DNA of 64,000 bases, taken from assembly GCF_014191255.1 (NCBI RefSeq), contig NZ_JACHWH010000001.1:2170001-2234000 (forward strand). The letters are read 5' to 3'. Made by a program: the position numbers and the translations under genes. Under the pieces are notes generated by a model, which searched no databases, was not told the origin of the DNA, and saw only the letters and a list, made by a program, of their open reading frames with translations. Below are positions 17,704-64,000 of the stretch, piece after piece. Position 1 is the stretch's first letter; every line of letters begins with the position of its first letter. This DNA is from Amycolatopsis bartoniae (GTDB taxonomy: Bacteria; Actinomycetota; Actinomycetes; Mycobacteriales; Pseudonocardiaceae).

Positions 17704-18363
17704 ATGCCAGGGCTCAGCGGGGACCAGATCAGGAAGCGGCTCGACGAGGCACGGCTCTACCTGTGCACCGACGCCCGCGCCGAGCGCGGTGACCTCGCCG
17801 AGTTCGCCGACGCGGCGCTCGCCGGCGGCGTCGACATCATCCAGCTCCGGGACAAGACCAGCGGCGCGCCGCTGGAGGCGAAGCAGGAGCTGGCGGCGCT
17901 GGAGGTGCTCGCGGAAGCGTGCGCGCGGCACGGCGCGCTGCTCGCGGTGAACGACCGGGCCGACGTGGCGCTCGCCGTGGACGCCGACGTGCTGCACCTG
18001 GGCCAGGACGACCTGCCGGTGCCCGTGGCCCGGCGCATTCTCGGGGACGGCCCGGTGATCGGGCGCTCCACGCACTCGGTCGAGCAGGCCCGGGCGGCGG
18101 AAGCCGAGCCGGGCGTGGACTACTTCTGCACCGGCCCCTGCTGGCCGACGCCGACCAAGCCCGGCCGGCCCGCGCCCGGCCTGGACCTGGTGCGTGCGAT
18201 GACCGGGGCGCGGCGGCCGTGGTTCGCCATCGGCGGCATCGACGACGAGCGCCTGCCCGAGGTGCTCGACGCAGGCGCTTCGCGCGTCGTGGTGGTCCGC
18301 GCCATCACCGAGGCCGACGACCCGCGGGCCGCCGCGCGGCGGCTGGCCGACCGACTGCGCTGA
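17704..18363 (+). CDS. thiE: Thiamine-phosphate synthase ThiE
   Basis: This enzyme joins HMP-PP and thiazole phosphate into thiamine phosphate. The 219-residue TIM barrel shows [63 protein letters not shown] and FAIGGID. The expected final glycine-rich phosphate loop is slightly changed ([10 protein letters not shown]). ATG 17704 lies 36 bases from the divergent riboswitch, with only a weak GTGGCG as a binding site, so a short or absent leader is possible. No riboswitch precedes this gene. Confidence 0.95.
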
Positions 18364-51933: not shown

Positions 51934-53103
51934 ATGAAGAAAGCGATCAGACGCAGTGCCGACGCCACCGGGGCGCTGGTCGGCGGCCTCCTGACCGCCG
52001 TGCCGGCGTTGCTCGGGCTGTTCGCGGTGCCGCTGCTGGTGCTCGCCCTGCCACTGGTGCCCGCCGCCGCCGGGCCGCTGCGGTTCGTGGCGGACCTCGA
52101 ACGCGAGCGCGTCAAGCTGCCGTCGCCCTACCGCCGCGTCGCGCCCGTGCGGGACTCCGCGACGTGGCGCGACGTGGCGTGGATCGTGGTGCACGGGGTG
52201 TTCGGCACGTTCCTCGGCGTGACGGCGGTGGCGTTGTGGCCGGCGATCGTGCAGAACGTGACGCTGCCGCTGTGGTGGTGGCTCCTGCCGCCGGGCTCGG
52301 TCTCGGCGTTCGTGTGGGACGTCCGGACCTGGCCGCAGGCGCTCACGCTGCCGCTCGTGATGGCCGCGTTGTACGGCGCGATGCTGTGGTGGTTGATACC
52401 GCTCGCCGCGCGGGCGCAGGCGTGGCTGGCCCGGGCGCTGCTCGGACCGTCCGATCGGGACCTGCTGGCGCAGGAGGTCGAACGGCTCACCGAGACGCGG
52501 ACCGAGGCGCTGGAGTCGCACGGCGCGGAGCTGCGCCGCATCGAGCGTGACCTGCACGACGGGATCCAGGCGCAGCTGGTGGCGGTCGCGGTGCGGCTCG
52601 GGCTGGCGGAGCGGGCGTTGCGGGCGGACCCCGAGATGGTGCGGACGTTGCTGCGGGACGCGCGGACCGGGATCGAGGACTCGCTGGGCAACCTGCGGGG
52701 CGTGATCCGCGGCATCTACCCGCCGATCCTCGCCGACCGCGGGCTCGGCGGGGCGGTGCACGCGCTCGCGAGCGGGCAGCGCGTGCCGGTTTCCGTGCAC
52801 ATCCAGGAGGACCTGCCGCGCCCGCCCGCGCCGATCGAGGCGGCGGCGTACTTCGTCGTGGCCGAGGGGCTGACGAACGTGACCAAGCACAGCGCCGCGC
52901 GGCACGCCGAGGTGGCGGTTTCGCGGCAGGGACAGCACCTGCGGGTGCTGGTGCGCGACGACGGGCAGGGCGGCGCGGACGCCGCCGGCGGAACGGGACT
53001 GGCCGGCATCCGCCGGCGGGTGGCCGCGCTGGACGGCACCGCCAGGATCGAAAGTCCCGCCGACGGAGGAACGACGATCGAGGTGCTGCTGCCGTGCGGA
53101 TAG
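51934..53103 (+). CDS. Sensor histidine kinase, NarL/DesK-type
   Basis: The 389-residue protein has four membrane helices in its first 175 residues and little outside the membrane, as in kinases that sense through partner transporters or the membrane itself. The HisKA_3 dimerisation helix has His208 in RIERDLHDGIQAQLVAVA. The HATPase region has AEGLTNVTKHSAARHAEV and DDGQGGADAAGGTGLAGIRRRVAALDG. It overlaps the response regulator gene by 10 bases. ATG 51934 follows GGGGAGCCGG. Confidence 0.92.
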   Translation: MKKAIRRSADATGALVGGLLTAVPALLGLFAVPLLVLALPLVPAAAGPLRFVADLERERVKLPSPYRRVAPVRDSATWRDVAWIVVHGVFGTFLGVTAVALWPAIVQNVTLPLWWWLLPPGSVSAFVWDVRTWPQALTLPLVMAALYGAMLWWLIPLAARAQAWLARALLGPSDRDLLAQEVERLTETRTEALESHGAELRRIERDLHDGIQAQLVAVAVRLGLAERALRADPEMVRTLLRDARTGIEDSLGNLRGVIRGIYPPILADRGLGGAVHALASGQRVPVSVHIQEDLPRPPAPIEAAAYFVVAEGLTNVTKHSAARHAEVAVSRQGQHLRVLVRDDGQGGADAAGGTGLAGIRRRVAALDGTARIESPADGGTTIEVLLPCG

Positions 53104-53729
53104 TGATCGCCGAGGACAACGCGTTGCTGCGGGAGGGCATCGCCCTGCTGACGCGCACGGCCGGGCACGAGATCGTGGGGATAGTCGCGAGCGGCCCGGA
53201 GATCGTGCCCGCGTTGCTGGAGCACCGGCCGGACATCGCCGTGCTCGACGTCCGGATGCCCCCGACGTTCCGCGACGAGGGCCTGCGGGCGGCGATCGAG
53301 GCGCGGGAAAAGCTGCCCGGGTTGCCGATCCTGGTGCTGTCGCAGTACGTCGAGCACACGTACGCGACGGAGCTGCTGGCCAGCGGCGCGAGCGGGATCG
53401 GTTACCTGTTGAAGGACCGCGTCGGCCGGGTGGAGGAGTTCCTGGACGCGCTGAACCGGGTGGCCGGCGGGGGTACCGCGCTGGACCCGGAGGTGGTGTC
53501 GCAGCTGATGAACCGGCGCGACCCGCTGGACGCCCTGACGGCGCGGGAGCGGGAAGTGCTGCACCTGATGGCGCAGGGCCACGACAACGCCGCGATCGCC
53601 CGCCAGCTGGTGGTGACCGAACGAGCGGTGACGAAGCACATCGGCAACATCTTCCGGAAGCTGGACCTACCCCCGTCGGACAGCGGACATCGAAGGGTGC
53701 TGGCGGTACTGGCGTACGTGAACGCCTGA
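53094..53729 (+). CDS. LuxR/NarL-type response regulator
   Basis: The 211-residue protein has a receiver domain with phosphoacceptor Asp52 (VLDVRMPP), conserved acidic EDN at 7-9 and Lys in YLLKDRVG. The LuxR-type HTH covers about 145-205 (LTAREREVLHLMAQGHDNAAIARQLVVTERAVTKHIGNIFRKL). GTG 53094 overlaps the kinase gene. It likely controls the divergent ABC exporter operon. It is the last chromosomal gene before the truncated tRNA. Confidence 0.94.
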   Translation: MRIVIAEDNALLREGIALLTRTAGHEIVGIVASGPEIVPALLEHRPDIAVLDVRMPPTFRDEGLRAAIEAREKLPGLPILVLSQYVEHTYATELLASGASGIGYLLKDRVGRVEEFLDALNRVAGGGTALDPEVVSQLMNRRDPLDALTAREREVLHLMAQGHDNAAIARQLVVTERAVTKHIGNIFRKLDLPPSDSGHRRVLAVLAYVNA

Positions 53730-53738
53730 GGTGCGAAG

Positions 53739-53780
53739 AGCCGACTAGGGGACTCGAACCCCTGACCTGCTGTTTACAAG
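53739..53780 (-). tRNA. tRNA-Thr (TGT) 3' fragment, attachment-site remnant
   Basis: Read on the reverse strand, the segment starts in an anticodon loop (CTTGTAA, anticodon TGT) and goes on with the 3' anticodon strand ACAGC. The variable loop, T arm AGGGG-TTCGAGT-CCCCT, acceptor strand AGTCGGC and discriminator T follow. The bases before the anticodon loop (CAACAG) do not pair with ACAGC, and no D arm or 5' acceptor strand (GCCGACT) is found. Only the 3' half is present. This is the expected scar of a site-specific integration into the 3' end of tRNA-Thr, and the 42 bases are the probable att core. Confidence 0.82.
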
Positions 53781-54014
53781 CTGTTGGGTGCAGGGTGCGC
53801 GACGGTCCTCTTGACAGGAATGTGCAGGTCACAGGGGACGCGCGTCCCGTTGTATCCCTCGAAGGTCTAAGAGGAATGAGACGGCAACTGAGACGAACCG
53901 ACAGTCTGGGGAGCGGTCACAGAGATCCTGATCAGCACTCGGCTTGATCAGTACCCACCTGGAGGCGCGCGGGACCGGATCACACACCCTGTGACGCGAC
54001 GAGGGCTGACAGCG

Positions 54015-55511
54015 ATGTACCCGGGCATGAGATTCGGACTACCGCGATGGCGCCGCTCTCGGAATCAGCCCAGGGAGTTGAGACCGATCTCGGGTTGGCT
54101 GCTGTTGCCGGCCTTGGTGCTGGTGGTGGTCGTGACGTGGCTGGTGTACGTCGTGGCCACCCATCTCGCCGGGCCTGGAGTAGGTCCGAGCGACCGGATC
54201 GACATCGTCAAGATCACGTTGTCGACTGCGGCGGGCACCGGCGGTGCGGTGGCGCTGCTGCTGACCTTCCGCCGCCAGCGCACCAGCGAGATCACCGGCG
54301 CGCACACCATTCAGGACGCGACCTCCCGGCGGATCACCGAGCTCTACACCAAGGCGGTTGAGCAACTCGGCTCGGACAAAGGCGCGGTCCGGCTCGGCGG
54401 GCTCTACGCCCTCGAGCGCCTGGCCCAGGACAACCCCGACCAGCGGCAGACCATCGTTAACGTGCTGTGCGCCTACCTGCGCATGCCCCACACCCCGCCG
54501 CCCGCGCCACCACAGAACGTCAGCCCTCGACCAGGGACCTCCCGACAGACGCGCCGCCCAGTCCGGCTGGCCGGAACCACGGCCGCCGCGCAGCGGGCCA
54601 GTGACCAGCTGCGCCGCCAGGAACACGAGGTCCGCCTCACCGCGCAGAGAATCCTCGAACGCCACCTCCAGGTCGGCGACAACCCCCGGCGGCCACTCCA
54701 GACCTTCTGGGCCGATCTGGATCTCGACCTCACCGGCGCCGTCCTCACTGGGATTAACCTGTCACACTGCCGAGTGCGAACTGGCCGGTTCACCGGCGTG
54801 ACCTTCACCGGGGACGCCTCGTTCACCGACGCGACCTTCACCGAGGACGCCTCGTTCGACGACGCGACCTTCACCGGGGAGGCCTCGTTCACCCACGCGA
54901 CCTTCACCGGGGACGCCTCGTTCACCGGCGTGACCTTCACCAGGGGCGCCTGGTTCGACGGCGTGACCTTCACCGGGCACGCCTCGTTCGAGGACGTGAC
55001 CTTCACCGGGGACGCCTCGTTCACCGGCGTGACCTTCACCGGGGGCGCCTGGTTCGGCGGCGTGACCTTCACCGGGCACGCCTCGTTCGAGGACGTGACC
55101 TTCACCGGGGGCGCCTCGTTCACCGGCGTGACCTTCACCAGGGGCGCCTCGTTCGACGAGGCGGCCTTCACCGGGGGCGCCTCGTTCACCGGCGTGACCT
55201 TCACCGGGGACGCCTGGTTCGACGGCGTGACCTTCACCGGGTACGCCTCGTTCACCCGCGCGACCTTCACCAGGGACGCCTCGTTCGACGACGCGACCTT
55301 CACCGGGCACGCCTCGTTCGACGGCGTGACCTTCACCGGGGGCGCCGGGTTCGGCGGCACGCTCAGCAAGGCAGCCGCATGGGACTTCACCGGCGCCAGG
55401 GTGACCCAGGACGCGGTGCACGACTCCACGTGGCCGGCGGGATGGGGCGCCCCTGTGCTGGGCGAGGCGCGCGGAACCAAGTGGGTGCTCATTGAGCGTG
55501 TGGCTCCGTAG
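54015..55511 (+). CDS. Membrane protein with tandem 11-residue pentapeptide-like repeats
   Basis: This 498-residue protein has two membrane helices (about 28-50 and 65-82). A conserved helical region with LYTKAVEQLGSDKGAVRLGGLYALERLAQDNPDQRQTIVNVLCAYLR follows, then a Pro-rich linker. At about 258-450 come some 17 tandem copies of an 11-residue unit, F-x-G-V-T-F-T-G-x-A-S. The last part (about 455-498) is non-repetitive. The repeat matches the Pentapeptide_3 style of right-handed beta-helix. At the DNA level the unit is 33 bases with very few silent differences, indicating recent expansion. ATG 54015 has GAGGG upstream. Confidence 0.8.
   Translation: MYPGMRFGLPRWRRSRNQPRELRPISGWLLLPALVLVVVVTWLVYVVATHLAGPGVGPSDRIDIVKITLSTAAGTGGAVALLLTFRRQRTSEITGAHTIQDATSRRITELYTKAVEQLGSDKGAVRLGGLYALERLAQDNPDQRQTIVNVLCAYLRMPHTPPPAPPQNVSPRPGTSRQTRRPVRLAGTTAAAQRASDQLRRQEHEVRLTAQRILERHLQVGDNPRRPLQTFWADLDLDLTGAVLTGINLSHCRVRTGRFTGVTFTGDASFTDATFTEDASFDDATFTGEASFTHATFTGDASFTGVTFTRGAWFDGVTFTGHASFEDVTFTGDASFTGVTFTGGAWFGGVTFTGHASFEDVTFTGGASFTGVTFTRGASFDEAAFTGGASFTGVTFTGDAWFDGVTFTGYASFTRATFTRDASFDDATFTGHASFDGVTFTGGAGFGGTLSKAAAWDFTGARVTQDAVHDSTWPAGWGAPVLGEARGTKWVLIERVAP
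54784..55360 (+). repeat. 33-base coding tandem repeat, about 17 copies
   Basis: Within the pentapeptide-like gene, a 33-base unit of the type GTGACCTTCACCGGGGACGC followed by CTCGTTCACCGGC is repeated in tandem without spacers. Copies alternate among a few variants (FTGV, FDGV, FEDV, FTHA). The near-identity makes slippage or unequal recombination probable. Confidence 0.85.
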
Positions 55512-55564
55512 GGAGCGGTGTGCGGTCGTGGATATCGCAGGGAGCGTCCCATTAGCTGCGATCG

Positions 55565-55737
55565 TCACTTTTCCGAGTCGTGGATGAGCTGCGTCACCCG
55601 ATCCAGGCTCCCGGGAGCTCAGTCCTGTGATGTCGCCCAGCTCCTCCAGCGTGAGTCCAGCTCCTCGCGGCGTACAGAGTGGCCAGCGAAACCGCTCTGA
55701 GCAGCACGTTCGACGCGGTGAACCGACCCGTTGCCAT
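55565..55737 (-). pseudogene. Frameshifted remnant of a small HTH-type protein
   Basis: A reverse-strand start at 55737 gives MATGRFTASNVLLRAVSLATLYAA. The coding sense then continues in a second frame as GLTLEELGDITGLS, and in a third as LDRVTQLIHDSEK with a TGA at 55565-55567. Joined, these would make a helix-turn-helix-like protein of about 57 residues. At least two frameshifts separate the pieces, so the gene is dead or the reading is by chance. The stretch 55512-55885 otherwise holds only a hairpin. Confidence 0.35.
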
Positions 55738-55833
55738 GTCTTTGCCATCGGAGACCGACTGTGAGGCACAGGATGGCAAAGTGCGGCATGTGCCCCTAGC
55801 TGGTGTTGCTTACATGCGTTACGGTGCGACATA

Positions 55834-55872
55834 ACAGAGGACCACGCCGTCGTGACCGGCGTGGTCCTCTGT
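55834..55872. terminator. Perfect 16-base hairpin
   Basis: ACAGAGGACCACGCCG (55834-55849) and CGGCGTGGTCCTCTGT (55857-55872) pair perfectly around a 7-base loop. It lies 14 bases beyond the reverse-strand DUF2188 gene and probably terminates it; it could work in both directions. Confidence 0.75.
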
Positions 55873-55885
55873 CTCATTGGCAGCG

Positions 55886-56107
55886 TCAGCCGCGCGGGGG
55901 GAACGGGTCGCCCCCGTAGGTGCGCTCATCCTCGATCGTGCCGTCTTGCCGCATGATCTTGAGCTGGCTCGGGGCATTAGCCTTCGCGACCTTCACGCCA
56001 GCGTCCACGGCCGTCGACTTGATCGCGTGCTGTGACAGCACCCGCGAGTCATGCTTCACTTGCCAGTTCGTGCCATTGGGCACCACGAAGTACTGCTTCC
56101 GCGCCAT
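55886..56107 (-). CDS. DUF2188 family small protein
   Basis: The 73-residue protein carries the DUF2188 pattern: YFVVPNGTNWQVKHDSRVLSQHAIKSTAVDAGVKVAKANAPSQLKIMRQDGTIEDERTYGGDP, a beta-alpha-beta unit with a Gly-Asp end. The family is widespread and of unknown function. It is preceded 3 bases upstream by a 54-residue partner gene, which often accompanies it. Confidence 0.85.
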   Translation of the reverse strand: MARKQYFVVPNGTNWQVKHDSRVLSQHAIKSTAVDAGVKVAKANAPSQLKIMRQDGTIEDERTYGGDPFPPRG

Positions 56108-56110
56108 GAC

Positions 56111-56275
56111 TTACTTCTCCTTCCGTACACCCTTAAAGGGCTGCCCGTCCTTCTTGCCGTCCAGGAACCGGCCGCCCTCTCCCCGCTTGGTCCATTCCCC
56201 TGTCTTCGGGTTCATGACCTGGCTGCGCCCGCGGACCGCGCCGACACGCGATCCGTTCCCCGTGTTCTTTGCCAT
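56111..56275 (-). CDS. Small basic Gly/Lys-rich protein, partner of DUF2188
   Basis: The 54-residue protein reads MAKNTGNGSRVGAVRGRSQV, then NPKTGEWTKRGEGGRFLDGKKDGQPFKGVRKE. The charge pattern and the absence of hydrophobic segments suggest an unstructured or nucleic-acid-binding peptide. ATG 56275 was chosen because AAGGAG lies 4 bases upstream. Similar proteins next to DUF2188 genes are common in bacteria, from my recollection; the function is unknown. Confidence 0.8.
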   Translation of the reverse strand: MAKNTGNGSRVGAVRGRSQVMNPKTGEWTKRGEGGRFLDGKKDGQPFKGVRKEK

Positions 56276-56469
56276 GCTGCTCCTTATGTTTGTCTCACTG
56301 ACGGACCGTCGATCGATCCGTTGGCACGAGACCCTAGCTGACGGAGTCCGGATGGTCAACCACGCATGTGACGCGTCTGACCAGCGGAGATGGTTGTCCG
56401 TTTGCCAGCCAAACCCTTTGGGCGTTACGGTACGTCCGTACGGGTTGCAAGTTCGGGCGTGGAGATGGC

Positions 56470-56826
56470 ATGACCTGGTCTAGGGACGCGATCAAACGAC
56501 TGTATGTAGAGGTCGGCATCCGGGTCAGGAATGCGAGAAAACAGGCTGAGTGGAGTCAAACCGGTCTGGGTGACGCCATCGGGCTCACGCGCTCTTCGGT
56601 GGCAAATATAGAAGCTGGTCGACAGCATGCGCCTGCTCATGTAATCGTATTAATTGCGCAAACGCTCAAATTGCCATACGACGAGCTGCTGCCCAGCGGT
56701 GAAGAGTTGAATGAAATCGCACGAGCTTCTGCGCCAGATTTCGACCTAAGTGAACTTTCGGAAACCTCCCAAGAATTTGTCACTGCGACGATTCGCCGAG
56801 CCATGGGAGAGGTAGGCGGAGAATGA
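56470..56826 (+). CDS. XRE-family regulator (ImmR-like)
   Basis: The 118-residue protein has an XRE helix-turn-helix near residues 15-70 (RNARKQAEWSQTGLGDAIGLTRSSVANIEAGRQHAP) and a C-terminal part of unknown fold. Its ATG at 56470 has GGAGATGGC upstream, and its stop overlaps the next ATG (56823-56826). GC content is visibly lower than in flanking genes. With the coupled ImmA-like peptidase it forms a pair analogous to ImmR/ImmA of ICEBs1. Confidence 0.85.
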   Translation: MTWSRDAIKRLYVEVGIRVRNARKQAEWSQTGLGDAIGLTRSSVANIEAGRQHAPAHVIVLIAQTLKLPYDELLPSGEELNEIARASAPDFDLSELSETSQEFVTATIRRAMGEVGGE

Positions 56827-57350
56827 TGCGACGTGATGCGGTTCAGCAAGCTGAACGACTTCTATCGCAATGGGGAATCGTCGCTCCTCCTGTGCCGGTC
56901 GAGAAGATGGCAGTGAATCAGGGTATTGCAGTCGTGCGACGAGCTGCCGACTGGAGCGAGTCCGGCTTCCTCTTGAGGCAAAGAGGAAGTGTCATGATCG
57001 GAATTAACAGCAGACATTCCCCTAAGCGGCAACGATTCACGATCGCGCACGAACTCGGACATTGGCTACTTCATGATGGAAAGCCGCTTATTGTGGATCA
57101 GTCTGTAATGATGATCAACAAGCGCGACGATCTATCCAGCCAAGCTACTAATCTTGAAGAGATCGAGGCAAACGGCTTCGCTGCTGAACTGCTGATGCCG
57201 CGGACTCTCATGATGGAAGCGATTAGAAGACAGCTAAGCTTTGGGCATTCTTCGCGAGAAGAGTTTGTGACGGCAATAGCAAAAGAGTTCGACGTCAGTG
57301 TCGACGCGATGGGGTTTAGATTGATGAACCTCGGAGTGTTCAGTAATTAG
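56823..57350 (+). CDS. ImmA/IrrE family metallopeptidase
   Basis: This 175-residue protein has the zinc motif FTIAHELGHWLLH (His76, Glu77, His80), followed by the IEANGFAAELLMP block that supplies the third ligand (Glu at about 113-115). ImmA proteins cleave partner repressors after DNA damage or quorum signals, releasing element excision genes. It overlaps the XRE gene and has the same low GC. A hairpin (GCTTTC-N5-GAAAGC, 57372-57388) follows. This suggests element-specific control of excision. Confidence 0.88.
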   Translation: MMRRDAVQQAERLLSQWGIVAPPVPVEKMAVNQGIAVVRRAADWSESGFLLRQRGSVMIGINSRHSPKRQRFTIAHELGHWLLHDGKPLIVDQSVMMINKRDDLSSQATNLEEIEANGFAAELLMPRTLMMEAIRRQLSFGHSSREEFVTAIAKEFDVSVDAMGFRLMNLGVFSN

Positions 57351-57371
57351 CGATCGTGGGAGCTTGTCTAG

Positions 57372-57388
57372 GCTTTCATCGCGAAAGC
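57372..57388 (+). terminator. Short hairpin after the ImmA-like gene
   Basis: GCTTTC and GAAAGC are perfect 6-base arms around ATCGC, 22 bases after the stop codon. Confidence 0.35.
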
Positions 57389-57488
57389 TGAACAGAACGT
57401 CATCGTTTCAATCTGACTAGCTGAAAGTGTCCACTGCGACTGGGGTCTCTAGTGATTGGCGGCTCTAGTTACACCGGTACGACGCAGT

Positions 57489-57755
57489 TCAGCCCCGCCC
57501 GCGTTTCCGCAGGCCGGAGGGCTTTAACCCGCGCATCAGCTCCCCGGGGTCGACGCCCAGCTGATCGGCGATCGTCACGATGACGTCGAACGTCGGGTTC
57601 GCGAGGCCGCGCTCAAGGTTCGAGTAGTAGCTCGCCGTGAGGCCGCTTGCGTGCGCCATCCGCTCCTGAGTCAGGCCCTCGATCCGCTCGCGCGCAGCGC
57701 GCACGCGGGCGCCGAACTCCTCGGACTCTGGGGTCTTGACCGTCACGTCGGCAAC
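57489..57755 (-). CDS. XRE-family transcriptional regulator
   Basis: This 88-residue protein is almost entirely an XRE helix-turn-helix domain: EFGARVRAARERIEGLTQERMAHASGLTASYYSNLERGLANPTFDVIVTIADQLGVDPGELMRG. The C-terminus is a basic tail (LRKRGRG). ATG 57755 follows AGGA; an upstream GTG (57773) is possible. It is divergent from the GntR gene at 57905 and shares with it an intergenic palindrome. Confidence 0.88.
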   Translation of the reverse strand, partial: VADVTVKTPESEEFGARVRAARERIEGLTQERMAHASGLTASYYSNLERGLANPTFDVIVTIADQLGVDPGELMRGLKPSGLRKRGRG

Positions 57756-57793
57756 CATGGCCAGTCCTGGCACTAAAGACCATAGTTATGAGT

Positions 57794-57813
57794 ACTTGCT
57801 GTATATAGCAAGT
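57794..57813. promoter_or_regulatory. Palindromic operator between XRE and GntR genes
   Basis: ACTTGCT-GTATAT-AGCAAGT is a perfect 7-base inverted repeat with a 6-base AT-rich centre, in an AT-rich divergent promoter region. Either neighbouring regulator could bind it. Confidence 0.55.
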
Positions 57814-57904
57814 GCTATGTAGCATCCTTCCTTGTAGTTCCTCGCCGAACGCGCAGGTCAGAACGCTATAGACCGCGGCAGGCCGGACGACTCACGGAAG
57901 GTAC

Positions 57905-58282
57905 ATGAGCCAGATGAGCGACGACGCAACGGACGACCAGCTTCCCGCGTTCGACCCGGATAGTGGAGCCCCGGCCTACCTCTATGACAGGCTCGCCGAC
58001 CATCTCGCCGGGCTGATCACCCAAGGGCACTTCCGTCTGTACGAGCAGTTCCCGGGCGAGGTCAAGCTCTCCCAGGTGTTCGGCGTCGCCCTGGGCACCG
58101 CTCGGCACGCCATTGAGCGTCTGCGAGAGCGGGGTTTGGTCGCGACAGTGAGGTCCAAGGGCACCTACGTCACGTACGACGCAGAGGCCACCTGCGGCGA
58201 ACAGGCAGACCACCACGGCGACCGCGGGCCGCACGACGAGGCGCAGCCAGGAACGCCGGACGTCGCAGACGATCGCTCCTAG
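57905..58282 (+). CDS. GntR-family regulator, DNA-binding domain only
   Basis: The 125-residue protein has a winged helix (about 25-95: LYDRLADHLAGLITQGHFRLYEQFPGEVKLSQVFGVALGTARHAIERLRERGLVATVRSKGTYV) and an acidic/His-rich tail without an effector domain. Such short GntR proteins (KorSA/TraR-like) typically control plasmid transfer or replication in actinomycetes. ATG 57905 has GGAAGG upstream. Confidence 0.83.
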   Translation: MSQMSDDATDDQLPAFDPDSGAPAYLYDRLADHLAGLITQGHFRLYEQFPGEVKLSQVFGVALGTARHAIERLRERGLVATVRSKGTYVTYDAEATCGEQADHHGDRGPHDEAQPGTPDVADDRS

Positions 58283-58375
58283 GCGTGGTAGGTCGCGGTG
58301 AGGCGGAATCGCCGACCAACTCTCTCCAGGACCTGCGGTTCAATCCGCCGAGCACGCCCAACGGAAGGATTTGTG

Positions 58376-58930
58376 GTGAACGTCGTGACACAACCGCCTG
58401 CCTGGCGGGAGTTCCCGAGCGGGCTGGTTCCGGCCGCCGACGGGCCGATTCAGTGCGTGAGGTGTGAGCGGCCAGCTCAGCTCTACGTCCTCGACCTGCG
58501 CGAGGACATGTGGTTCAGCTGCCTGGATCACCATGCGGCGCTGGTGCTGGACCTCCTCAGCGGCAACCTCGACGACGAGCAGCCGCCCGAGGTCAGCCAG
58601 TCGGAGCAGCCCGGCACGGACCGGCCGGACCAGGCCGCCGAGGAGCGGCTACAGGCTTGGCGTGAGGTCCTGGCATTCCGTGCGCAAGCTGCTCGGCTGC
58701 GCGCCCTGACCGAACAACTTCGATCCGCGATCTACGCCTTGGACGAGACCTCGGAGCCCCTGCGGGCAGTGCTCGGCGCCAACCCCGAGCTTGCCGCACT
58801 GGGCGACCGAGAGGTGCGAGAACTACCGAAGAGCTTCGAGTCGGCCACTCGCACGGCTCGTGCAGTGGAACGTCTCATCCTGGATTTCGTCCATGCCCTC
58901 TCTCTGGAACGGTCCCGGAAGACGCGCTGA
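58376..58930 (+). CDS. Protein with Cys-rich N-terminal zinc-like site, unknown
   Basis: The 184-residue protein has CVRC (Cys27, Cys30) and a later SCLDHH (Cys49, His52, His53), which would make a small zinc-binding unit. A long helical region (about 80-180) follows, likely a coiled coil: EERLQAWREVLAFRAQAARLRALTEQLRSAIYAL. GTG 58376 was chosen because GAAGGA lies just upstream; the frame also opens further upstream. No family is recognised. Confidence 0.6.
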   Translation: MNVVTQPPAWREFPSGLVPAADGPIQCVRCERPAQLYVLDLREDMWFSCLDHHAALVLDLLSGNLDDEQPPEVSQSEQPGTDRPDQAAEERLQAWREVLAFRAQAARLRALTEQLRSAIYALDETSEPLRAVLGANPELAALGDREVRELPKSFESATRTARAVERLILDFVHALSLERSRKTR

Positions 58931-59006
58931 CGACCCGGCCGGGGGTTCGCCGTGCGTGGAACACTGGGCACGCGGGATGAGACCTCCGGAGTGAAGGGGC
59001 AGCGGG

Positions 59007-59903
59007 TTGACGAAGGCACGAGCCTTGACCGAGGAGACAGCGCATCGAACGCTGGTCGCCGTCTGCGAGCGGGTCGGCCTCGATCCGGCCGGCGCCGAAC
59101 TCATCCGCATCGGCTCGAACGCCGTGTACCGCCTGGCCAAGCCAGTCATCGTCCGTATCGGCCGTGACGGCGAGACCGTCGAGAACGCGCGCAGGCAGGT
59201 CGCCGTGGCGCGCTGGCTCGCGAGCGAGAACTACCCGGCGACGAGGGCCCTCGACGTCGACCAGCCGGTCGAGCTGGACGGGCACGTATCGACGTTGTGG
59301 GAGTCGGCTTCCGAGCGGGAGGAGTACGCGCCACTCGCGCAGGTGGCGGAGCTGATCCGCCGTCTTCACGAGCTGGAGGCGCCCGCATCGCTGGCGCTGC
59401 CTCGGATCCAGCCGTTCGCCAAGCTGGACGAGTACCTGCCCGACCTTGAGCGCGTCGACGGCGCCGATGCCGCGTTCATGCGCGAGCGAATCGAGCAGTT
59501 GCGGAGCAGGTACGAAGCGTTGGACTTCGCGCTGAAGCCGGGCGTCATCCACGGCGACGCGAACGTGGGCAACGTGATCCTCGACCGCGAGGGCCACCCG
59601 CTCCTGATCGACCTCGACAGCTTCTGTACCGGTCCGCGGGAGTGGGACCTGGTGCAGACCGCGCTGTTCTTCGAGCGCTTCGCCTGGCACACCGAGGAGG
59701 AGTACCGCCAGTTCGTCGAGGTCTACGGGTTCGACGTGATGACGTGGCCCGGATACCCGGTGCTCGCCGAGTACCGAGAGATCTCGATGACCCTGTGGTT
59801 GTGCGGAAAGGCCGTGGCCGACGAGGGCGCGGCCGCCGAGGTGCGCAAGCGCATCGAGGCCATCAGGACAGGGGGAAGCCGCCGCGACTGGGCGCCCTTC
59901 TAG
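59007..59903 (+). CDS. Aminoglycoside phosphotransferase-fold kinase
   Basis: The 298-residue protein is APH/choline-kinase-like. The nucleotide Lys/Arg region lies in LAKPVIVRIGRDGE, the catalytic loop is VIHGDANVGNVILDREG, and the metal-binding Asp is in LLIDLDSFCTGPREWDL. The substrate is unknown; the fold also covers sugar and small-molecule kinases. TTG 59007 is the start favoured by GAAGGGGCAG upstream. Its end overlaps the convergent XRE-TPR gene by 41 bases. Confidence 0.82.
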   Translation: MTKARALTEETAHRTLVAVCERVGLDPAGAELIRIGSNAVYRLAKPVIVRIGRDGETVENARRQVAVARWLASENYPATRALDVDQPVELDGHVSTLWESASEREEYAPLAQVAELIRRLHELEAPASLALPRIQPFAKLDEYLPDLERVDGADAAFMRERIEQLRSRYEALDFALKPGVIHGDANVGNVILDREGHPLLIDLDSFCTGPREWDLVQTALFFERFAWHTEEEYRQFVEVYGFDVMTWPGYPVLAEYREISMTLWLCGKAVADEGAAAEVRKRIEAIRTGGSRRDWAPF

Positions 59904-61278
59904 CGTCGTCCGGGGTCCAGAGCCGCGTTTCCGATGCCTGCTCGATGAAGTCCGCGACCGCGGCCGTCTTGCCCACGCGGGACAGGCGCGCGCGGAACTC
60001 ATCCACGTAGGAGCCGCACCGCGCCGACTTCAGCCGTTCGGCAATTTGCAGCGCTTCCAACGCGACTTCGCAAGCCTGTTCCGCCTCGCCCTGGTCCATG
60101 TAGGCGTCCGCGAGAACCATCGTGGCGAAGAAGTCGCTTCGCACGTAACCGCTGGCCGTGGGTCCGAGCGACTGCGAGGCGTAGGTGGACGCGTCGACTG
60201 CCCGGCCGAGATCGCGGTTGCAGTGCCCCAGTTCGGCGGCAAGCTCCGAGTCGTTGAAGTAGCCGAACCAGTCCGCCGGGTCGTTGTCCGGGTTCCGGCG
60301 CTCGAACTCGCGTACCGCGCCCGCCATCGCCTGATCGCAACCCGCGACGTCGCCGAGTCGCGCGAGTGCGCGTGCTTCCATCGCGTAGAAGTGCGCGAGC
60401 GCGCTAGCCGATCCGGCCGTCTCCGTGCCCATCCGCGCCGCGCGGGCGAGGTTCGCGGCTTCCCGATACCTGCCGAGGAAGGTTGCCTGGTGGCTCATCG
60501 CGTCCAAAATGGACGCACCAAGCAGGCGGTCTCCCGTCGACTCCGCGAGCCGTAGTGCCTGGATGAAGTACCGCTGAGCGAGTCCGTGCAGGCCGGAGTC
60601 GTAGGACATCCACGCCGCGAGCAGCGTCGCTTGCGCGGCCTCCGCATACAGCTGTCGCCCGGTCTCCTCGGAGTACGTGCCGTCCAGCAGCGCGGCGACA
60701 TCCGTCCGCAGGAACTCGACGAGCGCCCGGCGTGCGTGGCCGCCGCCGTGCTGGCCGTCGAGGCGGTCGAACATCATCGTCGTGTCGCGAAGGCCCGCGA
60801 TGTCCGCAGGCCCGACGCGCCGCTTCCCGGTGCCATTGATCATGTCCTGTCGCGTGGTGACCAACCATGACAGGGACGTCTCGCTCCAGGCCGCGATGTT
60901 GGCGGGCGCCGTCAGCAGCGCCGAGACGTTGTCCAGGTCAGCCTGCCAAAGCCCGGTCAGCGCGGCGATCCCGTCCGAGACGTCGTCCGGATAGGTCAAC
61001 CCGAGATCCGCCGAGATCTTCCGCGGACCGCCGAAGCCCACCTCATGCTGTGCGACCGGCCTGCCTAGCCGCTCAGCGAGCGCGGTCGTGATCGCCCGGC
61101 GCGTCTGCTCGTCGCGGGGCACCATGCCGCCGAGCCACCGCCGGACGTAGGTGTGCGTGAAGGTGCGGCCCGCCTGGCGGCCGACTGCTCGTGCGAACAC
61201 CTTCAGGCCGACCGAACCGTCGTCCTTCAGGAATCCCGCCTCGCGCATCAGGGCAGCGAGCTGTTCGTTGCCCTCCAT
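59863..61278 (-). CDS. HTH regulator with TPR-like helical repeats
   Basis: This 471-residue protein has an N-terminal helix-turn-helix-like region (about 20-70: FARAVGRQAGRTFTHTYVRRWLGGMVPRDEQTRRAITTALAERL). A long all-helical region (about 180-440) of TPR-like repeats follows, such as LLAAWMSYDSGLHGLAQRYFIQALRLAE and AEQACEVALEALQIAERL. Regulators of this type are very common in actinomycete genomes and plasmids and probably sense a peptide or small ligand. ATG 61278 is chosen. It is convergent with the APH-like gene. Confidence 0.8.
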   Translation of the reverse strand: MEGNEQLAALMREAGFLKDDGSVGLKVFARAVGRQAGRTFTHTYVRRWLGGMVPRDEQTRRAITTALAERLGRPVAQHEVGFGGPRKISADLGLTYPDDVSDGIAALTGLWQADLDNVSALLTAPANIAAWSETSLSWLVTTRQDMINGTGKRRVGPADIAGLRDTTMMFDRLDGQHGGGHARRALVEFLRTDVAALLDGTYSEETGRQLYAEAAQATLLAAWMSYDSGLHGLAQRYFIQALRLAESTGDRLLGASILDAMSHQATFLGRYREAANLARAARMGTETAGSASALAHFYAMEARALARLGDVAGCDQAMAGAVREFERRNPDNDPADWFGYFNDSELAAELGHCNRDLGRAVDASTYASQSLGPTASGYVRSDFFATMVLADAYMDQGEAEQACEVALEALQIAERLKSARCGSYVDEFRARLSRVGKTAAVADFIEQASETRLWTPDDARRAPSRGGFPLS

Positions 61279-61399
61279 CGCTACCTCCGACTGTGCCCCG
61301 ACTGTTCGAGTGTGCCCCCGAGTGTGCCCTGTTTGCGCTGGTCAGGGGACGCTTTCATAGAGGCATGACACAGAACAGCGCACTCCCGAACCACTCGGG

Positions 61400-61762
61400 T
61401 CACCCGTTCGACTCCCCCTCCAGCCGGTCCAAACGCTCTTCGATCGCGGAGACCGCCGCCCGTAACTCGATCACCGCGCGCCGCAGGTCGCTCACGGTCA
61501 CGGCCGGGCGTTCCTTCGGCGGATCGTCCGAGACGTACACGCCGACCGAGGGCCGCGGCACGAGCCAGCCTTCTTCCTGGAGCAGGGCCACCGCCTTCTG
61601 CAAGGTCGGCAGGGACACCCCGTGCTGCTGCGCCAAGTCCCGGTTTCCGGGCAAGCGGGCGCCTGGCGCGAGCTCGCCGGTCGCGACGGCTTCTCGAATG
61701 GAGGCGGCGACCCGTTCGTATGCCGCCAGGCCCGCGGCTTCGCTTCCCACGGGTCCGAGCAT
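61400..61762 (-). CDS. GntR-family regulator with coiled-coil tail
   Basis: This 120-residue protein has a GntR winged helix (about 12-75: YERVAASIREAVATGELAPGARLPGNRDLAQQHGVSLPTLQKAVALLQEEGWLVPRPSVGVYV) and a short coiled coil (LRRAVIELRAAVSAIEERLDRLEGE). No effector domain is present. ATG 61762 has no clear ribosome site, so a leaderless transcript is possible; an in-frame GTG lies 24 bases upstream. The intergenic region carries several TGACCAA half-sites, suggesting autoregulation. Confidence 0.8.
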   Translation of the reverse strand: MLGPVGSEAAGLAAYERVAASIREAVATGELAPGARLPGNRDLAQQHGVSLPTLQKAVALLQEEGWLVPRPSVGVYVSDDPPKERPAVTVSDLRRAVIELRAAVSAIEERLDRLEGESNG

Positions 61763-61766
61763 AGCC

Positions 61767-61846
61767 AGCTGACCAACCCTGACCAATCTTCACGCGGATG
61801 GCCTAACGACGAACTGACCAATGCTGACTAATGTCAGCATTGGTCA
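61767..61846. promoter_or_regulatory. Operator cluster: TGACCAA half-sites and a 14-base palindrome
   Basis: TGACCAA occurs twice in direct orientation 10 bases apart (61769-61786), and TGACCAATGCTGAC-TAAT-GTCAGCATTGGTCA at 61815-61846 is a perfect inverted repeat. The palindrome lies between the GntR gene and the divergent operon, with the operon's likely start at 61873. This is probably the GntR operator. Confidence 0.7.
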
Positions 61847-61872
61847 ACAAGGCCACGACGAGAGGAATCCTG

Positions 61873-62190
61873 ATGAGGTCCGCACACATGAGCCGCCGAC
61901 AGGCCGAAGCGCATTTCGACGGCTTGGACACCGACTACGACGAGGTTTTCGCTGTTCAGGCGCACGCGACACAGCGTGCCGATGCTGAGGAGCTGGCCGC
62001 CGCGCACACGTTGCTCGACGAGCTGGACGCAGAGCTTGAGGCGGCAGGACTCGCCGCGCTGGTCCGGGTTCCGCGGTTCCTCGACTCGCGTCGAGCGGGT
62101 CGCTCGCGCCGCCGGGTCGACCGGACGGCGTTGCGGTCGCTGCCGACGCGCCTGGACGCCACCGACCTGATGGAGGGAGACGCCGCCTGA
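61873..62190 (+). CDS. First gene of a coupled element operon, unknown
   Basis: The 105-residue protein has a helical middle (AEELAAAHTLLDELDAELEAAGLAALV) and an Arg-rich C-terminal part. ATG 61873 is chosen because GAGAGGA lies 7 bases upstream; an ATG inside the palindrome (61831) is an alternative. Its TGA shares a base with the ATG of the following small gene (TGATG). No family is recognised. Confidence 0.6.
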   Translation: MRSAHMSRRQAEAHFDGLDTDYDEVFAVQAHATQRADAEELAAAHTLLDELDAELEAAGLAALVRVPRFLDSRRAGRSRRRVDRTALRSLPTRLDATDLMEGDAA

Positions 62191-62345
62191 TGGTCCGACT
62201 CCTGATCACTGACCCCGGCGCGGCGCATCCCGCCAAGAACGCCGCCGCGCCGGGACTCCCCAAGCAGCCAACAAACCGTTCGGAGAGGGGTCTCATGGTA
62301 GGCACTTCTGCTTCCCGCGTGCACCACGTCGGGGGTGGCCACTGA
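62190..62345 (+). CDS. 51-residue peptide gene in the coupled operon
   Basis: ATG 62190 overlaps the preceding stop by one base, and the TGA (62343-62345) overlaps the next ATG at 62345 by one base. The product is Pro/Ala-rich and basic (HPAKNAAAPGLPKQPTNRSERG). The position, with both ends coupled, suggests a real gene or a translational relay. No family is recognised. Confidence 0.5.
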   Translation: MVRLLITDPGAAHPAKNAAAPGLPKQPTNRSERGLMVGTSASRVHHVGGGH

Positions 62346-62770
62346 TGTCACTCCACAGCCTGACCCTTCCGCTGTGGGCGGAGTGGGAGGACGCATCCAG
62401 CGAGGTGCTTGAGCTGCGCCCGATCCGGGTGAAGTTCCGGTACCGCTCTGATGACCCCTTCGCGATCCTGCTCGACTTCGCTGTCGGCTCCGAGTTGTGG
62501 GTTCGCTGGACGATCGCCCGTGAGCTACTGGCTGATGGCCTGGTGCAGGACTCGGGGGAGGGGGATGTGCACATCGCGCCGGACTCGGACCTGTCGTCGC
62601 GCGTCTGGCTGGCCTTCTCGACGCCAACCGGCGTCGCGGTGTTCGCCTTCCAGCGCTCGGACCTGGAAACGGCGCTTGCCGAGACCGAAGTGCTCGTACC
62701 GATCGGAAGCGAGTCAGCACTCATCGACTGGGACCGCGAGCTGAAGCACCTTCGAGGTGATGCCGCATGA
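62345..62770 (+). CDS. SsgA-family (SALP) protein
   Basis: The 141-residue protein shows the SALP signature: VKFRYRSDDPFAILLDFAVGSELWVRWTIARELLADGLVQDSGEGDVHIAPD, then VWLAFSTPTGVAVFAF and an acidic C-terminus with LIDWDRELKHL. SALPs (SsgA/SsgB) mark and regulate sporulation septa in streptomycetes by localising FtsZ. Its presence on an integrated element is unusual and may influence the host's septation during transfer. It overlaps the next gene by 4 bases. Confidence 0.88.
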   Translation: MSLHSLTLPLWAEWEDASSEVLELRPIRVKFRYRSDDPFAILLDFAVGSELWVRWTIARELLADGLVQDSGEGDVHIAPDSDLSSRVWLAFSTPTGVAVFAFQRSDLETALAETEVLVPIGSESALIDWDRELKHLRGDAA

Positions 62771-63081
62771 CTTCCCACTCGGTTCTGTACATCCTCGCCG
62801 GACTCGCCGCTGTTGGTCTCTTCTCGACGTGGCGTTCTGGCCGGAAGTCCGCCCTCAAGGCGCGCAACGGGGTCCGCGAAGTCACCCGCATGACCGGCAA
62901 CGCCGTTCGGACCTTGCTCACGGCCGCGCTGATCGTCGGCGTGCAATGGCTGGTCATTCGCTTCTGGCACAACACAACCGCGCTGCTCATCGTGCTCATC
63001 GTTCCGGCGCTGTTCGCCGGCGCCGCGGTCGCGCGTCTGCTCGCGGTGACCGAGATCGTCACGACCAGGGGGCACTCATGA
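62767..63081 (+). CDS. Small membrane protein of the transfer-like operon
   Basis: The 104-residue protein has three hydrophobic segments (about 6-22, 49-66 and 70-95: LLIVLIVPALFAGAAVARLLAV), with basic residues between the first and second (WRSGRKSALKARNG). No family is recognised. It overlaps both neighbours by 4 bases, so it is coupled to the SsgA-like and DUF2637 proteins. Small membrane (Spd-type) proteins of this sort accompany conjugation genes in actinomycete elements. Confidence 0.7.
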   Translation: MTSHSVLYILAGLAAVGLFSTWRSGRKSALKARNGVREVTRMTGNAVRTLLTAALIVGVQWLVIRFWHNTTALLIVLIVPALFAGAAVARLLAVTEIVTTRGHS

Positions 63082-63896
63082 CAGAGACTCGGGAAGACGT
63101 GCCGTCGACGGCGGACAAGCTGAGGCAGGAGGCCGCTACCGCGGCTCAGGTGCGGGCGCTGTCGAACAACCCGGACGTGGTCGCGCTACGGGTGGAGAAA
63201 GTCCGGTCCTTCGTGGACTCACTGGTGTGGGTTGGGATCTTCCTCGGACTTGCCTTCACGATGGTCAACGTCCAGACCTTCGCGGCCTCCGGTGCCGTCA
63301 CCGGGTCGTTGCCGTGGCTCGCGGCCTGGTTGCTGGACCCGATGGTGTCGCTCGTGCTCGTCGCTGTGCTGCGGGCGGAGCAGATCACCGCTCGATACCA
63401 AGTCCACGTAGGAACGTGGGCGCACCGGACGAAGTGGTTCGCGTTCCTCGCCACGTACGCGATGAACACGTGGCGCTCGTGGACGCGGGTGGACGTGGCC
63501 GGAGTGGTGCTGCACTCGGTTCCGCCGGTGCTGGTCTTCCTGGCAGCCGAGACCGCGCCGGTGCTCCGGGATCGACTCACCGAGGCCGTTGCTCGCGCCG
63601 CTGCTCCGGCGTTCACGGGCGCTCCTGCGGAGACCGTTCACGAGACACGCGAGGAGGCCCCGTCGCGACCGGTCGTTCAGCGGCGCAAGCCGAAGGCGAA
63701 GCCCGGGCGGAAGTTGCGCGCGGACTACCTGGCGGAAGCGCGAGCGGCGTGGACCCCGGGGATCGAGGTCACTCCCGCGTGGGTGCGGTCGGTCTGCCCG
63801 GAGATTTCGCGGGGGACCAGCAAGAACGTCGCGGACGAGTTGCGCGCTGAGGTTGTCAGCGCTCCGACCGACGAGCCACGTGAGGAGGCCGCCTGA
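63078..63896 (+). CDS. DUF2637 membrane protein
   Basis: The 272-residue protein has an N-terminal soluble helix, then four membrane helices (about 45-170) and the DUF2637-typical VWVGIFLGLAFTMVNVQTFAASGAVTGSLPWLAAWLLDPMVSLVLVAVLRAEQ. A cytoplasmic C-terminal domain with basic residues follows (RRKPKAKPGRKLR) and an HTH-like segment (VRSVCPEISRGTSKNVADEL). DUF2637 proteins are found mainly next to FtsK-type transfer genes of actinomycete integrative elements. It is coupled to the preceding gene (ATGA) and to the following one (TGATG). Confidence 0.85.
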   Translation: MTETREDVPSTADKLRQEAATAAQVRALSNNPDVVALRVEKVRSFVDSLVWVGIFLGLAFTMVNVQTFAASGAVTGSLPWLAAWLLDPMVSLVLVAVLRAEQITARYQVHVGTWAHRTKWFAFLATYAMNTWRSWTRVDVAGVVLHSVPPVLVFLAAETAPVLRDRLTEAVARAAAPAFTGAPAETVHETREEAPSRPVVQRRKPKAKPGRKLRADYLAEARAAWTPGIEVTPAWVRSVCPEISRGTSKNVADELRAEVVSAPTDEPREEAA

Positions 63897-64000
63897 TGCC
63901 CGCTTCCGACGACCAAGGCCGTGATGACGACTTCCACCGTGAGGAGCCCATGAACACCTCCGATCAGGAGCCCGTGAACACCGGCGACAGCGAGGCCACC
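63896..64000 (+). CDS. Partial gene, N-terminus only, possible transfer protein
   Basis: ATG 63896 overlaps the DUF2637 stop by one base and the frame stays open to the window edge. The visible 35 residues are acidic and repetitive (HREEPMNTSDQEPVNTGDSEAT), resembling disordered N-termini of FtsK/TraB-like translocases that usually follow DUF2637 genes. The identity cannot be shown from this fragment. Confidence 0.4.
   Translation, partial: MPASDDQGRDDDFHREEPMNTSDQEPVNTGDSEAT

Follow-up and report, generated by a model that had tools for sequence, protein, structure and literature searches.

A putative 17.3-kb integrative and conjugative element at a tRNA-Thr gene of Amycolatopsis bartoniae, with an SsgA-like gene in its predicted transfer operon

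Introduction

Actinomycete integrative and conjugative elements (AICEs) are described in PMC3218068 as equipped with a RepAM replication protein (DUF3631) and an FtsK-like transfer protein (Tra), together with recurrent KorSA-like GntR and NsdA-like regulators. According to the same source, NsdA negatively regulates both sporulation and the production of antibiotics, and six closely related integrases of the pSE211 type target tRNA-Thr. PMC4170104 (2014) leaves open by what means conjugative elements pass the septa of filamentous actinomycetes. SsgA-like proteins (SALPs) have been characterised: FtsZ is recruited by SsgB, and substitutions in the VPxGxE loop of SsgB misplace septa (PMC8061694). 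One SALP gene is recorded on a Pseudonocardia plasmid (PMC3814722), and none was found described on a conjugative or integrative element in the literature searched, which took in parts of PMC3218068, PMC3814722, PMC4255298 and PMC4457907. The element considered here lies in the 7.76-Mb draft genome of Amycolatopsis bartoniae and begins in the 64-kb stretch C1:2170001-2234000, the window of this analysis, to which all unprefixed positions refer. It is almost certainly an AICE of the RepAM/tyrosine-integrase type and as such ordinary, of a kind that is known. Within its tra operon stands an SsgA-like gene, and this recurring arrangement was likewise not found described in the literature searched.

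Boundaries of the element

An earlier sequence-only reading of the window had proposed that an integrative element is inserted in a tRNA-Thr gene, leaving only the 3' half of that gene at the left end. The features of the two ends are as follows, positions beyond the window being given on the fetched locus L004.

53738..53780, minus: attL core, the displaced 3' half of tRNA-Thr(TGT), running from the anticodon loop through the 3' end; all 43 bp recur unchanged at C1:2241073-2241115
53877..53896, plus: left 20-bp direct repeat, candidate integrase arm site; 2 mismatches to the right copy
L004 14667-16139: replication protein of the DUF3631 RepAM type (PF12307 9.5e-62)
L004 16336-16635: excisionase (TIGR01764 7e-11, above cut-off)
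L004 16649-17995: tyrosine integrase (PF00589 2e-17, PF14659 3.7e-8)
L004 18005-18024: right 20-bp repeat
L004 18073-18115, minus: attR core, inside the complete tRNA-Thr(TGT) at 18073-18146 (C1:2241073-2241146)

The incomplete tRNA-Thr is borne out, and an ARAGORN scan of the window yields no complete tRNA. The 42 bases suggested as att core were correctly assigned in role but one base too few, the exact repeat being 43 bp. At the far end the complete tRNA-Thr(TGT) is present, as predicted, with the integrase gene ending 77 bp from it; the two findings named beforehand as fatal to the idea, an intact tRNA-Thr without the repeat and a full tRNA reading across the site, did not appear. The cores are 17,335 bp apart and 10.3 kb of the element falls inside the window, so that it does run on beyond it. 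A 101-bp query matches the genome in three places, the third being tRNA-Thr(CGT) at C1:2312077, 88% identical over the 43 bp. The full tRNA gives nine matches, of which two are the core places and the other seven, the CGT gene included, are 77-84% identical; in these searches the copy beside the integrase is the only close full tRNA-Thr(TGT) of the genome.

Reading leftward from that tRNA, the order is tyrosine integrase, excisionase, DUF3631 replication protein and FtsK/SpoIIIE-type Tra, the excisionase gene ending 13 bp ahead of the integrase open reading frame. A tyrosine or serine integrase with xis next to it, a replication protein (RepSA, RepAM or Prim-Pol), a single Tra of this type and repeats at a tRNA 3' end are among the defining features of an AICE, beside a clt locus recognised by Tra and the ability to excise and transfer. 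The first four are present here, and with the GntR regulators (below) they confirm the gene content expected of actinomycete integrative elements. G+C is 66.7% between the cores; outside them it is 71.0%, both in window 1-53700 and over the 1.85 kb on the right. Just inside both ends lies the 20-bp direct repeat, built of two TGAGAC units 12 bp apart, which starts 97 bp inside the left core and on the right stops 49 bp short of the core. It was not found in window 1-53600 at up to 4 mismatches, and is a candidate arm site of the integrase.

Outside the left core, a response regulator gene (53094-53729) stops 8 bp before it. Beyond the tRNA 3' end there is a hairpin with a perfect 14-bp stem (L004 18030-18066); similar hairpins, judged by eye, follow the tRNA in genomes G015, G007 and G018, where no second core was found in the 10 kb fetched at the intact tRNA.

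An SsgA-like gene in the tra operon

The right part of the element within the window holds the genes leading into tra.

61400..61786, minus: GntR regulator 2, placed like KorSA and pointing away from the tra operon (PF00392 3e-16)
61873..62190, plus: orf12, which opens the tra operon and overlaps the following open reading frame by one base
62190..62345, plus: orf13, 51 aa; one-base overlap on each side
62345..62770, plus: SsgA-like protein (PF04686 5e-27; PDB 3cm1 5e-19, 6slc 9.6e-18)
62767..63081, plus: orf14, small membrane protein with 3 hydrophobic segments; four-base overlap with ssgA
63078..63896, plus: orf15, membrane protein in Spd-like position with 3 hydrophobic segments
63896..64000 and past the window (whole: L004 10896-13142), plus: FtsK/SpoIIIE-type Tra (PF01580 7e-8)

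Every join in the series orf12-orf13-ssgA-orf14-orf15-tra is an overlap of one or four bases, which points to a single coupled operon. The SsgA-like product reaches 94 bits against PF04686 (cut-off 25), and the two PDB entries that it matches are solved SsgA-type structures. Tra scores 32.6 vs 24 bits with PF01580 and merely 18 of 800 bits with the NCBIfam TraB model.

Close homologues of the SALP (E<=1e-22) occur in 15 of 297 genomes of the family, A. bartoniae included. At 12 of the 14 other loci a Tra homologue lies within the fetched stretch; orf14 is present at eight, and the set of orf12, ssgA, orf14, orf15 and Tra at seven. As a control, 71 SsgA-like genes and 65 Tra homologues (E<=1e-15) were located in 19 genomes of the genus. 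Low-scoring SALPs (<100 bits) are within 10 kb of a Tra homologue in 11 of 15 cases, the present one included, as against one of 56 high-scoring SALPs (>=100 bits); the Fisher p of 6e-9 is only a guide, the 100-bit split having been picked after the scores were known and the genomes being related. The single high-scoring exception, at 5.8 kb in G002, belongs to a SALP gene by a tRNA cluster that is adjoined by a SALP-bearing element. Four low-scoring SALPs have no Tra match nearby (two in G002, one each in G004 and G015); a GntR homologue is near three of them and an integrase homologue near two. We regard the linkage of SALP and Tra genes as established.

The linkage is not tied to one insertion site. 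Far ends were fetched for 11 of the 14 other SALP loci, where the nearest tRNAs are Tyr (5), Phe (2), Thr, Leu, Arg and Val (1 each), the Phe sites being at the end of a Glu-Asp-Phe cluster and the Val site at the end of a Gly-Cys-Val cluster; with that of A. bartoniae, SALP-bearing elements stand beside six tRNA types. An integrase is recognised by profile in four of these 11 loci (one weakly, 3e-5) and in G009. In the other six the motif RPYDLRHA or similar, which we take to be a tyrosine-recombinase C-terminus, could be read by eye, in G003 at 2 kb from the tRNA.

All 12 element SALPs aligned (L138-L149, with L150-L152 left out; 12 of 15 element copies) keep the VPxGxE loop, with the equivalents of V115, G118 and E120 of SsgB; residue numbers are those of PMC8061694, transferred by motif rather than by aligning that SsgB. 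The same 12 share a C-terminal IDW motif, seen in none of three chromosomal copies of the A. bartoniae genome aligned alongside. In a comparison of three elements the SALP frames are all intact and dN/dS is 0.11-0.26, which speaks for function; the copy in G005 has a stop within the match. In a tree of 61 rows one branch (support 86/79) sets off the high-scoring copies of the genus, along with nine copies from the wider class. Across that class, nine of 393 genomes besides A. bartoniae have a SALP match at 1e-21, and these cluster with chromosomal copies. Matches are rare among phage records (1 of 50,697).

The integration site in relatives

A tRNA-Thr gene is also the site at which pSE101 integrates. 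The integrase has homologues at E<=1e-100 in 24 of 200 family genomes, A. bartoniae included. Those 84-91% identical adjoin tRNA-Thr(TGT), or in G017 a fragment of it, and those 69-74% identical adjoin tRNA-Arg(ACG); more distant ones are found by Ser, Arg, Phe, Pro and other tRNAs.

The 20-bp repeat recurs in 11 of 16 other loci scanned, or nine of 14 distinct places, since L008/L103 and L010/L043 are each the same record. An integrase homologue accompanies it in six of the nine (A. pithecellobii, G017, G008, Prauserella muralis, G030 and G164), and it lies by the tRNA without one in G003, G015 and G018 (4 mismatches). An additional but imperfect core lies 2.1 kb off in G003. In G017 (L103 3858-15997) a core fragment is 12.07 kb from an intact tRNA-Thr with a second, distantly related tyrosine integrase (24% identity) beside it. 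This arrangement is a tandem element; successive elements at one site are termed accretion in PMC9513070. The tRNA-Thr site is used repeatedly. G015 and, weakly, G018 retain the 20-bp repeat, and therefore their intact tRNA loci may be scars.

The left flank is itself variable, since close homologues of the response regulator occur in only two of 18 other genus genomes, G011 (93%) and G017 (84%), the remainder reaching at most 65%; in G017 the response regulator and the tRNA are on different contigs. The tRNA-Thr(TGT) of G011 (L102 6335-6408) is 83% identical to that of A. bartoniae, with no closer copy in G011, and is possibly a replaced tRNA gene.

Backbone and cargo

The remaining genes of the element within the window are listed here.

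54015..55511, plus: pentapeptide-repeat protein, variable cargo, with a single hydrophobic segment at the N terminus (PF13576 8e-52)
55886..56107, minus: small DUF2188 protein, variable cargo (PF09954 6.5e-14; PADLOC PDC-S16 4.7e-17)
56111..56275, minus: small open reading frame, no family match
56470..56826, plus: XRE regulator, CapH-like, variable cargo (HTH_3 1.6e-11; capH 2.3e-6)
56823..57350, plus: ImmA/IrrE metallopeptidase, CapP-like, variable cargo of low G+C (PF06114 2.2e-25; capP 4.4e-33)
57489..57773, minus: XRE regulator, backbone (HTH_3 7e-14; homologue in L153, L154)
57905..58282, plus: GntR regulator 1, backbone (PF00392 4e-11)
58376..58930, plus: orf8, no family, backbone (homologue in L153, L154)
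59007..59903, plus: APH-fold phosphotransferase, backbone (PF01636 6e-25)
59863..61278, minus: NsdA-family TPR regulator, backbone (NF053720 3.4e-125, above cut-off)

A relative in A. pithecellobii (L007) has the phosphotransferase, NsdA-like, gntR, orf12, SsgA-like, orf14, orf15, Tra, rep, xis and int genes in the same order, and also xre, gntR and orf8 to the left of the phosphotransferase. The phosphotransferase and NsdA-like genes, which overlap tail to tail (59007-61278), co-occur in six of 30 integrase-linked stretches, whose lengths differ greatly, and a predicted phosphotransferase is mentioned for a pSE101/pSE211-like region of Saccharopolyspora in PMC3733707. The present phosphotransferase is far under the APH(3') cut-off (22 vs 205 bits). 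Because these genes recur in related elements they are counted as backbone, which by this comparison appears to comprise xre, gntR, orf8, phosphotransferase, NsdA-like and gntR genes and the tra-rep-xis-int block. The sequence-only reading had called the cargo unusual; this holds for the SsgA-like gene of the transfer operon and fails for most of the others, which are recurring backbone.

Variable cargo makes up about the left 3.7 kb, roughly 53781-57480, with the pentapeptide-repeat protein, DUF2188 (a candidate defence family of PADLOC) and the CapH/CapP-like pair, whose G+C is 52%. L131 and L155 also contain a homologue of the pentapeptide protein, and L222 a weak CapP homologue. The DUF2188 gene and the CapH/CapP-like pair (55886-57350) are possibly a small defence or damage-response cargo.

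Proposed role of the SsgA-like gene and alternatives

As the anatomy is read here, the integrase would have acted on the tRNA-Thr(TGT) gene and on an attP with its own copy of the tRNA 3' half, recombining the two, rebuilding the tRNA beside int and displacing the old 3' half to the far end. By analogy with the family, Xis and Int would excise the element as a circle, the DUF3631 RepAM would replicate it, the FtsK-like Tra would carry double-stranded DNA to recipients, and the GntR/KorSA-like and NsdA-like regulators would keep it silent. The SALP, together with orf14 and orf15 in the place of spd genes, would act on septa, tips or local peptidoglycan, and DNA would pass the cross-walls. Such action is suggested by the way its gene is coupled to those for two membrane proteins and Tra, and we tentatively infer, at somewhat less than even likelihood, that it works at hyphal tips or septa, letting the element cross cross-walls and spread in the mycelium. 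It is conceivable to much the same degree that one branch of AICEs has captured a septum-placing protein into its transfer operon, where it decides where or how the mycelium makes cross-walls permeable. If so, spread would involve a protein of known fold and known partners. The SALP-tra link offers a direct genetic test of how elements cross septa, and a SALP in a DNA-transfer operon may help to explain how elements spread through branching bacterial threads.

Several observations weigh against this picture. Among the 12 places in the genus with a Tra of at least 51% identity, the present one included, four have a GntR gene near Tra and lack SALP, orf14 and orf15, and a SALP is found in only one of the 30 integrase-linked stretches (L007), several of which are short; in five integrase-linked loci a relative of orf14 or orf15 occurs without a SALP match. 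It follows from such SALP-less places and stretches that the SALP is not needed for transfer as such; it recurs in transfer operons as an optional component. The element SALPs do not form one clean clade, a long-branched other sequence standing among them. They also evolve faster than orf14 and tra (dN/dS 0.11-0.26 vs 0.07-0.13 in three elements), as might be expected of a protein that adapts to host partners which themselves change. As to the element itself, its excision and transfer are predictions from sequence. Two of the more distant integrases (54-56%) are again at tRNA-Thr(TGT), none of the genomes examined offers a clean empty site, in which this left flank would run straight into an intact tRNA, and in G011, the best flank match, homology ends 5 bp short of the core and the tRNA-Thr(TGT) is divergent and 1.7 kb further on.

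The main competitor, which we consider a real though lesser-than-even possibility at about a third of the weight, is that the SALP is passenger cargo, uninvolved in DNA transfer, that changes how the host develops or functions in exclusion. Related AICEs do without it, as just noted, and the NsdA-like regulator of the same element could likewise act on host development. On four plasmids inspected of 20 listed, SALP genes are away from annotated Tra genes, with none annotated within 7 kb (PLSDB gene tables being incomplete); that finding, and SALP matches in only 44 of 72,556 plasmid records, led us to reject the SALP as a general plasmid transfer gene. A passenger would hardly be expected inside a run of overlapping tra-operon genes instead of at an end, nor in recurring linkage with Tra beside six tRNA types.

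Other alternatives concern the element as a whole. That it is an immobile relic is improbable: decay does happen at this site, because the same integrase has left three pieces by tRNA-Thr in G008 and two short ones in G016, but here int, xis, rep and tra are all open frames and the two cores are identical over 43 bp. Tyrosine integrases, excisionases, XRE regulators and ImmA-like genes occur in prophages too, which would favour a prophage; given the FtsK-type Tra and DUF3631, and the lack of any match to capsid, tail, portal or terminase at E<=0.01 among 20 proteins (Pfam and NCBIfam; PHROGs was not searched), that reading is very improbable indeed and was rejected. Least credible of all is that no element exists and the tRNA fragment arose by chance or duplication. 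tRNA genes share sequence, as the 88% match of another tRNA-Thr illustrates, but this reading was rejected because the repeat is exact over 43 bp and stops in the anticodon loop, int and xis lie on the inner side of the second copy, and the 20-bp repeats form a pair at the two ends.

Comparison with known systems

The left-end pair of XRE and M78 metallopeptidase genes resembles CapH/CapP of islands encoding the cyclic oligonucleotide-based anti-phage signalling system (CBASS). Unlike those islands, the element does not qualify as CBASS, no cyclase or effector being found among the 20 proteins scanned with Pfam and NCBIfam or the 10 of these scanned with PADLOC. The pair is also comparable to ImmR/ImmA of ICEBs1.

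With RepAM-type AICEs (the pSE211 and pMEA100 group) the element has in common a tyrosine integrase at a tRNA 3' end, Xis, RepAM and FtsK-type Tra, as well as KorSA-like GntR, XRE and NsdA-like regulators (PMC3218068). It agrees with the pSE211 sub-group in the tRNA-Thr target and RepAM type only, a likeness by description and not by sequence. It differs in the SsgA-like gene of its tra operon; 'ssga' occurs 0 times in the main text of PMC3218068. Like the Spd proteins of Streptomyces plasmids, the SALP is encoded beside tra, with small membrane proteins. According to PMC4170104 (2014), no predicted Spd protein is similar to a functionally characterised protein, whereas the SALP does resemble one. 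It shares with streptomycete SsgA, SsgB and SsgD the PF04686 family and the VPxGxE loop, although its score with the NCBIfam SsgD model is below cut-off (79.5 vs 185 bits), and is set apart from them in being borne on a mobile element and coupled to Tra.

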